From Rhodocyclaceae bacterium (GTDB lineage Bacteria; Pseudomonadota; Gammaproteobacteria; Burkholderiales; Rhodocyclaceae), in contig VEQD01000001.1 in assembly GCA_018883385.1 (NCBI GenBank), forward strand, positions 26,747-90,746: a stretch of DNA of 64,000 bases, in the 5' to 3' direction. Below, piece after piece: positions 26,081 to 52,852 of this stretch. Position 1 is the first letter of the stretch. Every line of letters starts with the position of its first letter. The notes beneath the pieces were generated by a model that saw only the letters and a list, made by a program, of their open reading frames with translations, did no database searches and was not told the DNA's origin. The position numbers and the translations under genes were made by a program.

Positions 26081-26266
26081 GTGGAATCGCTTTACCTGCT
26101 TATTCCCGTATCGATCGTACTGGTCTTCGTGATCGCCGGCTTATTCTGGTGGTCGGTGCGTTCGGGTCAGTTTGATGACCTGGAGGGTCCGGCGCATCGG
26201 ATCCTGATGGATGGCGAAAAACGACGGAATGACCGCAAAAATGTGGCTGATCGCCTTCCGGACTAA
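26081..26266 (+). CDS. ccoS: cbb3-type oxidase assembly protein CcoS
   Basis: GTG start: VESLYLLIPVSIVLVFVIAGLFWWSVRSGQFDDLEGPAHRILMD. Confidence 0.93.
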   Translation: MESLYLLIPVSIVLVFVIAGLFWWSVRSGQFDDLEGPAHRILMDGEKRRNDRKNVADRLPD

Positions 26267-26285
26267 AGTTGCGCCGCAGCATAAA

Positions 26286-26299
26286 TTGACGGATATCAA
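26286..26299. promoter_or_regulatory. FNR/ANR box 1: TTGACGGATATCAA
   Basis: Matches TTGAT-N4-ATCAA with one mismatch (TTGAC); FNR-type regulator encoded at 32618-33403. Confidence 0.65.
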
Positions 26300-26338
26300 T
26301 AAAGTGTCATGTAGTACCGGTTTGGTGGGTTTTGAGTC

Positions 26339-26367
26339 TTGTATCAGTCATCTGATCTGAGCATACT
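26339..26367 (+). promoter_or_regulatory. Candidate sigma70 promoter (TTGTAT-N17-CATACT)
   Basis: -35-like 26339-26344 and -10-like 26362-26367 with 17-bp spacer; predicted TSS near 26374. Weak hexamers, as expected of an activator-dependent promoter. Confidence 0.3.
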
Positions 26368-26373
26368 TGGAGC

Positions 26374-26454
26374 TGCAGGGTCTCAGGACTCGGTCCTCAC
26401 CCTGCTTCTCTGTTGGGGTTGGGGTGCGCTGTCTTGGCAGTGCACCTTTTTTTT
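26374..26454 (+). ncRNA. Candidate FNR-associated small RNA between ccoS and ccoN
   Basis: Hairpin GCAGGGTctcAGGACtcgGTCCTcACCCTGC (26375-26405), single-stranded CU/G-rich linker, then intrinsic terminator (26423-26454); FNR box 1 upstream. No convincing coding potential. Confidence 0.4.
26423..26454 (+). terminator. Rho-independent terminator
   Basis: GGTGCGCTG-tcttgg-CAGTGCACC followed by TTTTTTTT. Confidence 0.85.
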
Positions 26455-26505
26455 GCCCTTCTGCCGGCGTCTCAATCCCAAAGACGGCAGGTGTCGGGAG
26501 GAACT

Positions 26506-26519
26506 TTGACGTAGATCAA
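26506..26519. promoter_or_regulatory. FNR/ANR box 2: TTGACGTAGATCAA, upstream of ccoN
   Basis: Matches TTGAT-N4-ATCAA with one mismatch; TAGAAT -10-like hexamer at 26536-26541; ccoN ATG at 26610. Confidence 0.75.
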
Positions 26520-26609
26520 ACAATGCGAATTCAGTTAGAATTAAGGCTACGTTAAGGAATGGTTTTCGTGCAAAATCATGGTGTTTGTTCAATCAAAGAG
26601 GTGCGTCCA

Positions 26610-28049
26610 ATGTCTGTAATGTCGGATACGCAATCTGTATACAACTACAAGATTGTTCGGCAATTTGCCGTAATGACGGTGATTTGGGGGATTGTCGGCA
26701 TGCTGGTGGGGGTGATCGTTGCCGCCCAGCTCGTCTGGCCTGAACTCAACTTCGCTCCCTGGCTGACTTTCGGTCGTCTGCGTCCGTTGCACACCAATGC
26801 CGTGATTTTTGCGTTTGGTGGCTGTGCCTTGTTCGCGACTTCGTACTATGTTGTTCAGCGCACGTGCTACACCCGCATTTTCTGCGATAAGCTTGCCGCC
26901 TTTACCTTCTGGGGCTGGCAACTCATCATTGTGCTGGCTGCCGTGACACTGCCGCTGGGCATGACCTCCGGTAAAGAGTACGCCGAGCTGGAATGGCCCA
27001 TCGATATCCTGATTGCTGTGGTGTGGGTTGCCTACGCCGTGGTTTTCTTCGGTACAATCGCTAAGCGCAAGGTTCAGCATATCTACGTGGCGAACTGGTT
27101 CTACGGTGCCTTCATCATCGCGGTCGCACTGTTGCACATCGTGAACAGCGCCGAAATGCCGGTCAGCCTCTTTGGCATGAAGTCGTACTCGGCTTACTAC
27201 GGCGCACAGGATGCCATGGTGCAGTGGTGGTATGGCCACAACGCCGTCGGTTTCTTCCTGACGGCAGGCTTCCTGGGCATGATGTACTACTTTGTGCCGA
27301 AGCAAGCGGGTCGTCCGGTGTATTCGTATCGTCTGTCGGTCGTCCACTTCTGGGCGCTGATTTTTACCTACATGTGGGCGGGTCCGCACCATCTGCACTA
27401 CACGGCGCTGCCGGACTGGACCCAGTCGCTGGGGATGGTTTTCTCGCTGATTCTGCTAGCACCCTCGTGGGGCGGTATGATCAACGGCATCATGACCTTG
27501 TCGGGTGCCTGGCATAAGCTGCGTGATGACCCGATCCTGAAGTTCCTGATCACCTCACTGTCTTTCTACGGTATGTCGACCTTCGAAGGTCCGATGATGG
27601 CGATCAAGACGGTGAATGCGCTGTCGCATTACACCGACTGGACCGTGGGTCACGTGCACTCGGGCGCCCTCGGTTGGGTGGCCATGGTGTCGATCGGTTC
27701 GATCTACTTCCTGATTCCGAAGCTGGTGGGTAAGCAGGAGATGTGGAGCACCAAGCTGGTGACCACGCACTTCTGGATCGCCACCGTCGGCGTGGTCTTG
27801 TACATTGCTTCTATGTGGATCTCGGGGGTGATGCAAGGTCTGATGTGGCGTGCGGTTAACGCCGACGGCACGCTGACCTACAGCTTCATCGAAGCCGTGA
27901 AGGCCAGCTATCCGTTCTGGGCGATTCGTGTACTGGGTGGTCTGATGTACCTGGTTGGCATGCTGCTGATGCTCTACAACGTGGTGAAGACGATGCAGGG
28001 TGCGCGTATGGTTGACGACGCGGCTGTCCCGGCACCGGCACACCACTAA
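26610..28049 (+). CDS. ccoN: cbb3-type cytochrome c oxidase subunit I
   Basis: [87 protein letters not shown]-like region; RBS aaagagg. Confidence 0.97.
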
Positions 28050-32617: not shown

Positions 32618-33403
32618 TCAATGAGCCGGGCGACCACTGGCAATGTCCGCCAGGCCCTCCGGGTTGGTGATCTGCAGGTGACGGGTCTGAACATCAACCA
32701 GGCCGTCTTCCTGAAAGCGTGAAAATAGGCGAGAAACCGTTTCCAGAGATAGCCCTAGGTAACTGCCGATTTCTTCGCGCGTCATGCGCAGCACGAAGGT
32801 GTTTGGAGAATACCCGAGTCGCGAGAACCGTTTGCCCAGATCCACAATGAACGCAGCCAAGCGGGACTCGGAGCGCATATTGGCCAAAATCTGGAAAGCG
32901 GCCTGATCCTGAACGATACGCTGGCTCATCAGCCGATTCAGGTGAGCGTGCAGCGTGGGGAAGGATGTCGCAATCTCATCGACGTTGCCGTAGGGCATCA
33001 GGCAAACCTCGCTGACCTCGAGCGCCACGGCGCGACACGCATGACGGCCACCACCGATACCATCCATGCCGAGGATTTCTCCGGTCATCAGAAAGCCGGT
33101 GACCTGGTCACGCTGTGAGTCGTTCGGAACAAGCGTCTTGAAGAAGCCGCTCCGCACTGCATAAAGGGCATTGAACGGCTCGCCCAGGTTGAACAGCGTC
33201 TCGCCACGCTGCAGGCGGCGGCGGGTTGGAAACCATTGGTCCAGGGATTCCAGCTCTTTGACGTCGAGTGAAGGTGGGTGGCAAACAGCGTTCAGGTCGC
33301 AGTGCAAGCACTGCGCCTTCAGCTCCGCAACATCAATCCCACGCGCCTTGTGGGTGCACGGCTCTTTAGTTTTGAAATCCTGAACTTCGTTCTTGCTGGA
33401 CAT
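32618..33403 (-). CDS. fnr: FNR/ANR-family oxygen-responsive transcriptional regulator
   Basis: CLHCDLNAVC cluster ligands plus GGGRHACRAV fourth Cys; HTH EEIGSYLGLSLETVSRLFSRFQEDGL. Confidence 0.93.
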   Translation of the reverse strand: MSSKNEVQDFKTKEPCTHKARGIDVAELKAQCLHCDLNAVCHPPSLDVKELESLDQWFPTRRRLQRGETLFNLGEPFNALYAVRSGFFKTLVPNDSQRDQVTGFLMTGEILGMDGIGGGRHACRAVALEVSEVCLMPYGNVDEIATSFPTLHAHLNRLMSQRIVQDQAAFQILANMRSESRLAAFIVDLGKRFSRLGYSPNTFVLRMTREEIGSYLGLSLETVSRLFSRFQEDGLVDVQTRHLQITNPEGLADIASGRPAH

Positions 33404-43132: not shown

Positions 43133-43717
43133 TCAGGCGAAGTTGGCTTCGGCAAATTTCCAGTTGGCCAGTTTGTCGAGGAAGGTCTCGACAAACTTCG
43201 GACGCAGATTGCGATAGTCGATGTAGTAGGCGTGTTCCCACACATCCACCGTCAGCAGTGCCTTGTCGCCGGTGGTCAGCGGGGTGCCTGCGGCGCCCAT
43301 GTTGACGATGTCGACGCTACCGTCGGCCTTCTTGACCAGCCAAGTCCAACCCGAGCCAAAGTTACCGACCGCCGAGGTCTGGAAAGCTTTCTTGAACTCG
43401 TCGAACGAGCCCCATTTTTTATTGATGGCATCAGCAAGGGCACCGGTTGGTGCGCCACCGCCGTTTGGCGACAGACAGTTCCAGAAGAAGGTGTGGTTCC
43501 ACACCTGCGCGGCGTTGTTATAGATGCCACCGGCCGGCGCCTTCTTGACGATCTCTTCCAGGCCCAGCTTTTCGTATTCGGTGCCCGGAATCAGATTGTT
43601 GAGATTGGTCACATACGCTTGGTGGTGCTTGGCATAGTGATAGTCGAAGGTTTCCTCAGACATGTGCGGGGCGAGGGCGTTCTTGGCGAACGGCAGAGCG
43701 GGCAATTCAAAAGCCAT
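43133..43717 (-). CDS. sodB: Superoxide dismutase (Fe type)
   Basis: MAFELPALPFAKNALAPHMSEETFDYHYAKHHQAYVTNLN, DVWEHAYYIDYRN. Confidence 0.96.
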   Translation of the reverse strand: MAFELPALPFAKNALAPHMSEETFDYHYAKHHQAYVTNLNNLIPGTEYEKLGLEEIVKKAPAGGIYNNAAQVWNHTFFWNCLSPNGGGAPTGALADAINKKWGSFDEFKKAFQTSAVGNFGSGWTWLVKKADGSVDIVNMGAAGTPLTTGDKALLTVDVWEHAYYIDYRNLRPKFVETFLDKLANWKFAEANFA

Positions 43718-43805
43718 AATATTTTCTCCGTGTTTGGGGTACTGCAAACCTCTGATTCTAGACAGAGCTGGTGTGCCCTGCAAGCGTTGATTGTGCCGAT
43801 GGGGC

Positions 43806-51727: not shown

Positions 51728-51841
51728 TCCTGATTTGTCCAAGCCTCTTATATCAAATCGGTTATAAACAATGCCAAAAATCATCTATAAACGCCATAAA
51801 GAATCACCTAGACTAGGCATCCCCCAACTAGGAGCATCCCT

Positions 51842-52852
51842 ATGAAAACCCTCAATTTACGTTCGTTGATCGGTACGGCGCTGGCCGCAGTGGCTGTTGC
51901 TTCCTCCGGTGTCGCGTCTGCGCAAACCTCGATTCTGAATGTGTCCTATGACGTGGCTCGTGAACTTTACAAGGACATCAATCCGGCATTCGCCTCGAGC
52001 TGGCAGGCCAAGGGTAATCCCCCCGTGACTATTAACCAGTCACACGGTGGTTCGAGCAAGCAGGTCGGTGCTGTCATCGCCGGACTCGAAGCGGATGTGG
52101 TCACCATGAACCAGGTGCCAGACATTCAGCAGCTCGTTAAAGCAGGCCTGGTCAATAGCGATTGGCAGAAGCGATTACCAAACGACGCTGCCCCCTACAC
52201 GACCACGACCGTGTTTGTTGTGAGAAAAGGGAACCCGAAGGGCATCAAAGATTGGCCGGATCTAATCAAGTCGGGCACGCAGGTCATCGTCCCAAACCCG
52301 AAAGTCACGGGTAACGGCCGGTATACCTACCTGGCGGCCTGGGGTTTTGCCATCAAGAACTACAAAACTGAAGAGAAAGCCCGCGACTTTGTGAAGGCGC
52401 TCTTTGCCAATGTGCCGGTGCTCGATGGTGGCGGCCGTGGTGCAACAACCACCTTCACGCAACGGAATATGGGCGATGTCCTGGTTACCTTTGAAAATGA
52501 AGCGATTCTGCTTGATAAAGAGGTCGGTGGTGATCAATTTGACATCGTGTATCCAAGTCTCTCGGTCGATGCGCCAGCCCCAGTGACGGTGGTCGACAAG
52601 GTGGTCGATAAGCGCGGTACACGTAATGTATCCACGGCTTACCTCGAATACCTGTGGACTCCGGAGGGTCAGGAGATCATCGCCAAGCATTATCTGCGTC
52701 CACGTAATGCGGCGGTGATGAAGAAATACGCCAAGACGTTTCCGGCCGTGAACACCTTCTCGGTGGAAAAACTGCTGGGCCCCTGGGATAAGGTCATGAA
52801 GGAACAGTTCGCCGATGGCGGCATCTATGACCAGATCATGGTGAAACGATGA
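51842..52852 (+). CDS. Sulfate ABC transporter substrate-binding protein (copy 2)
   Basis: SILNVSYDVARELYKDINPAFASSWQAKGNPPVTINQSHGGSSKQVGAVIAGLEADVVTMNQVPDIQQL. Confidence 0.93.
   Translation: MKTLNLRSLIGTALAAVAVASSGVASAQTSILNVSYDVARELYKDINPAFASSWQAKGNPPVTINQSHGGSSKQVGAVIAGLEADVVTMNQVPDIQQLVKAGLVNSDWQKRLPNDAAPYTTTTVFVVRKGNPKGIKDWPDLIKSGTQVIVPNPKVTGNGRYTYLAAWGFAIKNYKTEEKARDFVKALFANVPVLDGGGRGATTTFTQRNMGDVLVTFENEAILLDKEVGGDQFDIVYPSLSVDAPAPVTVVDKVVDKRGTRNVSTAYLEYLWTPEGQEIIAKHYLRPRNAAVMKKYAKTFPAVNTFSVEKLLGPWDKVMKEQFADGGIYDQIMVKR

Follow-up and report, generated by a model that had tools for sequence, protein, structure and literature searches.

A predicted FNR-controlled small RNA in the ccoS-ccoN gap, conserved across Rhodocyclaceae

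The gap between ccoS and ccoN in the window (the whole 64-kb stretch of Rhodocyclaceae DNA analysed here) carries an element that is very probably the gene of a trans-acting small RNA (sRNA) activated by an FNR-type regulator. The predicted gene is single-copy, restricted to Rhodocyclaceae and located between ccoS and ccoN. An FNR-controlled sRNA had been proposed for the source genome in an initial annotation of the gap; that observation was correct yet understated, as the element extends beyond this genome.

Taken as a whole, we find it likely that FNR/ANR switches on a Rhodocyclaceae sRNA that, aided by Hfq, would repress sodB and other genes. Falling oxygen would cause FNR/ANR to switch on a promoter that belongs to the RNA itself and lies between ccoS and ccoN. 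The transcript would begin with a hairpin, continue with an unvarying segment for pairing and end in an intrinsic terminator whose U tail would suit Hfq. Acting in trans, presumably with the assistance of Hfq, the RNA would cover GGAGA Shine-Dalgarno sequences with its UCUCU and pair through GUUGGGG with CCCCAAC just upstream, by which translation would be blocked. The repressed genes would be those dispensable without oxygen, sodB first, iscR in the window's genus and perhaps sbp. The U7-8 tail of the RNA and the hfq gene present in G002, a genome of the same genus, fit a putative Hfq-type sRNA. The window holds the following features.

26081..26266, + strand: ccoS, the upstream neighbour (NCBIfam TIGR00847 CcoS, 74.7 bits)
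26286..26299, + strand: FNR/ANR box 1, TTGACGGATATCAA, conserved in the genus, its centre at -81.5 relative to the predicted start
26339..26344, + strand: -35-like TTGTAT, kept in five of five species of the window's genus
26362..26367, + strand: -10-like CATACT, N17 from TTGTAT, [CG]ATACT in the genus
26374..26454, + strand: predicted sRNA of 81 nt, its start deduced from the -10 position; present once in the genome
26375..26405, + strand: 5' hairpin GCAGGG...CCCTGC, its fold kept and its sequence varying in the genus, with no sequence conservation beyond the genus
26407..26424, + strand: conserved core TCTCTGTTGGGGTTGGGG, the putative mRNA-pairing region, of which TCTCTGTTGGGGTT is the invariant part
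26421..26454, + strand: intrinsic terminator, stem plus eight T (26447-26454), from the terminator scan and covariation
26506..26519, + strand: FNR/ANR box 2, TTGACGTAGATCAA, probably for ccoN; most loci of the family have a second box, usually with a -10-like hexamer
26610..28049, + strand: ccoN, the downstream neighbour (NCBIfam TIGR00780 ccoN, 788.6 bits)
32618..33403, - strand: fnr/anr, the candidate activator (best NCBIfam match Fnr NF008365, 218.8 bits, below the curated cut-off of 228)
43133-43717, - strand: sodB (best match Fe-superoxide dismutase NF007832)
43726..43739, - strand: predicted pairing site CCCCAAACACGGAG over the sodB ribosome-binding site, by complementarity
51822..51834, + strand: predicted pairing site CCCCAACTAGGAG before sbp, by complementarity
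51842-52852, + strand: sbp, sulfate-binding protein, by annotation match

The two palindromes, the hairpin, the terminator, the TTGTAT-N17-CATACT pair, the start at 26374 and the box centre at -81.5 were all found where the initial annotation had placed them, and the intrinsic terminator with its eight Ts was recovered by the terminator scan. Three FNR-type sites with a score of 9 of 10 or more were detected in the 64-kb window (0-2 in shuffled copies); two of them are the gap palindromes and the third falls inside ccoN. The predicted 81-nt RNA folds at -39.0 kcal/mol, compared with -25.1 ± 3.3 kcal/mol for shuffled sequences (z = -4.18). A chance origin of the palindromes and hairpin was ruled out by this z-score, the box counts and the family-wide occurrence of the element. 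The generic sigma-70 promoter scan of the window did not call the TTGTAT/CATACT pair, so the promoter call rests on its being conserved in five species of the genus. Across the Rhodocyclaceae loci the -10 hexamer is most often CATACT or CATAAT. Regulators related to FNR can recognise FNR-type boxes as well.

Searching the DNA of 60 relatives showed a separate conserved block inside the ccoS-ccoN gap. When the loci were read side by side, the core TCTCTGTTGGGGTTGGGG was followed by a stem of varying sequence and then by a T-run. When GTDB genomes were scanned for CTCTGTTGGGGTTGGGG, the matches listed were mainly Rhodocyclales records, among them Azoarcus, Thauera, Aromatoleum, Dechloromonas, Azonexus, Denitromonas and Accumulibacter, with the core present in more than 100 of the listed loci; matches in unrelated groups were mostly without a terminator and look like chance. 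TCTCTGTTGGGGTT, followed by GGGG, was invariant across 45 distinct sequence rows. The covariance model R1 scored at least 39 bits in 96 of 121 Rhodocyclaceae genomes, and in other families of the order nothing scored above 30.1 bits, the matches there being mostly to the terminator only. Nearly all loci with core and terminator (125 of 126) had, within 600 nt, ccoS on the upstream side, ccoN on the downstream side, or both. The distance to ccoS is variable, and the promoter and RNA remain linked. In G021, a family genome with no match to the sRNA, the matches to ccoS and ccoN are separated by about 6 kb (C20:145581 and C20:151382), which suggests that the RNA was lost together with the ccoS-ccoN adjacency. 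One locus in G022 (L017) has a divergent core, GCTTTGTTGGGGTGGGGG, and a conserved terminator (42 bits), and it would allow a test of how the pairing segment drifts.

In the terminator alignment 97.5% of cells were paired, well above shuffled controls and compared with 32-74% in slid-partner controls. Compensatory changes, which had been suggested as a check, were evident: six of eight pairs of the terminator stem change on both sides, and the 5' hairpins of the genus vary yet keep most pairs. Box 1, the promoter, the linker, the terminator and a 5' hairpin that folds alike are retained in all five species of the genus, so the refuting condition named initially, a lack of conservation of the hairpin and box 1 in close relatives, does not hold; the linker, the terminator and an FNR box extend to the family as a whole. 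The five RNAs share one common fold in which the terminator is paired and no antiterminator competes. The linker, described earlier as unpaired, is mostly so and not entirely, for its UCUC can pair weakly (4 bp) with GGGG. Across the family the leaders vary in sequence yet are structured (109 of 112 at -5 kcal/mol or lower, mean z -2.3; the set includes the window's own locus, placed there by a chance hexamer), and the transcript predicted from the conserved terminator and promoter has a median length of 96 nt. The conserved part is the linker and terminator rather than the 5' hairpin sequence, and because the leader sequence is variable in the family, the conserved function would reside in the core and terminator. 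A coding explanation was rejected, since the stem length varies by single bases next to an identical core and no frame is kept.

The core can be read as two pairing modules, UCUCU, complementary to GGAGA-type Shine-Dalgarno sequences, and GUUGGGG, complementary to CCCCAAC. On the basis of such complementarity, sodB would be the best target candidate, with iscR (in the genus) and sbp as weaker ones. The window's sodB leader carries CCCCAAACACGGAGA; in G002 both modules are present in the leaders of sodB (CCCCAACCCGGAGA) and iscR (CCCAACGGGAGG), and CCCAACTTAGGAG is found at the gene corresponding to sbp. A strict sodB pattern, requiring CCCCAA ahead of the Shine-Dalgarno sequence plus the SodB start motif, was detected in 20 family genomes from 13 genera, that is, in 20 of 105 Rhodocyclaceae leaders vs 1 of 72 outside the family (Fisher p = 2e-4, with shared ancestry ignored; the denominators are genomes with the start motif behind GGAG). 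Pairing with iscR was strong in three of five species of the genus and absent beyond the window's genus, and iscR was rejected as a family-wide target for being limited to the genus. We give direct targeting of sodB by the predicted RNA about an even chance, while the sRNA itself and its FNR-type promoter have good comparative support.

A weak pairing site was also seen at bfr, in G002 only. Two ccoG/fixG-like genes of this genome (G002:C1 570059 on the plus strand, the other copy being on the minus strand) have identical leaders with CCCAACAG at -20, which is an 8-nt match to the core, and are possible further targets.

About four-fifths of the family sodB leaders are without the strict site, and the core is conserved more strongly than any single target site. 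Both observations speak for a variant of our explanation that keeps the same FNR-dependent sRNA and differs in targets only, the main ones being other than sodB, iscR or sbp, with the core serving a broad set or sequestering a protein. The genome-wide scans of G002 point the same way, as complementarity was not significantly above shuffled seeds either for leader matches below -24 kcal/mol (7 vs 4.2 ± 2.7) or for 9-mers (10 vs 5.6 ± 3.0); a genome-wide target ranking from a single genome is too noisy. However, the sodB sites are spread over 13 genera with hardly any outside Rhodocyclaceae, and sodB and the isc operon are among the reported targets of Escherichia coli FnrS (PMC8595263). We consider this variant somewhat less probable than an even chance would make it.

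An FNR box (at least 8 of 10) lies upstream of the core in 121 of 123 loci, vs 0.08 expected per sequence. For the loci outside the window's genus, the best -10 hexamer follows the box by 21-22 nt in 111 of 117, compared with a spread over 15-29 nt in the null of randomly placed windows; the box, at about -41.5, is thus predicted to be in a class II position. In the five species of the window's genus the boxes are centred at -81.5, -82.5, -92.5, -92.5 and -92.5, with TTGTAT and [CG]ATACT common to all. These are class I FNR distances, about one helical turn apart. An FNR-type site is accordingly found at an activating distance from the predicted promoter both outside the genus (class II) and within it (class I). 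The class I placement of box 1 at -81.5, as initially described, therefore stands, but locally, for the window's genus: the class I geometry is, by these predictions, peculiar to this genus, and other Rhodocyclaceae use class II. The class II loci also show a weak second motif, approximately GGTTTT, at +3 to +8 of the predicted RNA, preceded by AT (ATGG) in some genera, and this 5' motif is possibly a second pairing site.

The two remaining loci, L022 and L087, have no FNR box nearby. In each, an ompW-like gene comes to an end 9 nt ahead of the core, which is at 2919 in L022 and 1250 in L087 (oriented strand), and an FNR box stands 750-769 nt from the core on the upstream side, with ompW in between. 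There the RNA would be the 3'UTR, or 3' end, of an FNR-linked ompW mRNA, released from it.

Of 123 loci, 102 have a second FNR box between the terminator and ccoN, and in most cases a -10-like hexamer follows this box by 21-22 or 16 nt. Because ccoN has this site of its own, box 1 belongs to the RNA. The second box also argues against a cis-acting leader or attenuator of ccoN, in which the terminator would be conditional and binding of a protein or RNA to the core would lead to read-through. The RNA is indeed on the same strand ahead of ccoN wherever the locus includes ccoN, but the five genus folds have the terminator paired with no antiterminator, and the core does not pair with cco leaders (cco genes were rejected as targets, their complementarity not exceeding that of shuffled seeds); we hold such a leader to be very unlikely. 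It is just as improbable that the gap is simply the 3'-terminal part of the ccoIS operon, with a conserved terminator, a stable decay remnant and an incidental box 1, for although a strong terminator stands close behind ccoS in nearly all loci, a mere terminator has no need of an invariant 14-nt single-stranded segment or of its own FNR box and -10 at the fixed spacing given above, and the promoter and RNA stay coupled while the ccoS distance varies.

Rhodocyclaceae (Azoarcus, Aromatoleum, Thauera, Dechloromonas, Accumulibacter and others) inhabit oxic-anoxic boundaries and are important in denitrification, pollutant breakdown and wastewater treatment. Our literature search, which covered papers other than subscription ones, found none on an oxygen-responsive sRNA in Rhodocyclaceae and, with the core string included, no description of this RNA. 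A widespread, single-copy and highly conserved sRNA in the cbb3 oxidase locus would amount to a layer of regulation missing so far, for which the covariance model is a ready search model. The locus would also represent a natural experiment, with one sRNA kept under one regulator while its promoter was rebuilt, and if the targeting of sodB is true, it would be an independent convergence with FnrS.

The Rfam scan of the window gave no match at the gathering score, FnrS included, and neither FnrS nor RF02278 was among the matches in the gap up to E = 5; the SorY and suhB matches there (16 bits) were dismissed as noise. These scans, and the finding that RF02278/S17 is a distinct RNA encoded elsewhere in this genome, agree with the initial suggestion of an analogue unrelated in sequence to known FNR-dependent sRNAs. 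S17 of Bordetella pertussis and the RF02278 'toxic sRNAs' or double-hairpin RNAs of Burkholderia have an invariant 5' segment followed by a terminator and block ribosome-binding sites, and S17 adjoins coq7 and reaches a far higher level in Bvg+ mode (PMC11722255, PMC5688073). The RNA described here is similar to them as a betaproteobacterial sRNA with a long invariant segment and then a terminator, but their core is UGUCUCCUCCACCCUCCUCC, of CCUCC type, and differs from its core. This difference, together with a true RF02278 (S17/bdhR-like) gene elsewhere in the genome and outside the window (G000:C69:32339-32407, L165), ruled out an S17/RF02278 homologue. The RF02278 gene was found in most relatives, with 8-9 matches each in G010 and G043.

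AniS/FnrS of Neisseria and PhrS of Pseudomonas aeruginosa are FNR- or ANR-dependent sRNAs of other lineages; they are absent from the Rfam scan matches. With FnrS of E. coli and relatives the present RNA would share an FNR-box promoter, a short, putatively Hfq-type form, a 3' terminator and sodB/isc as predicted targets, whereas its sequence, neighbourhood and lineage are different and its pairing segment is GU-rich with the invariant GUUGGGG. We infer that it is a functional counterpart of enterobacterial FnrS with an independent origin. The more specific history, in which the Rhodocyclaceae RNA arose independently of FnrS and converged on sodB and partly on isc while FNR control was kept through class II, class I and ompW 3'UTR arrangements, could equally well prove right or wrong. 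The RNA would represent a new family of FNR-controlled, probably Hfq-dependent, trans-acting sRNAs that, as far as tested, is FnrS-like in its working.
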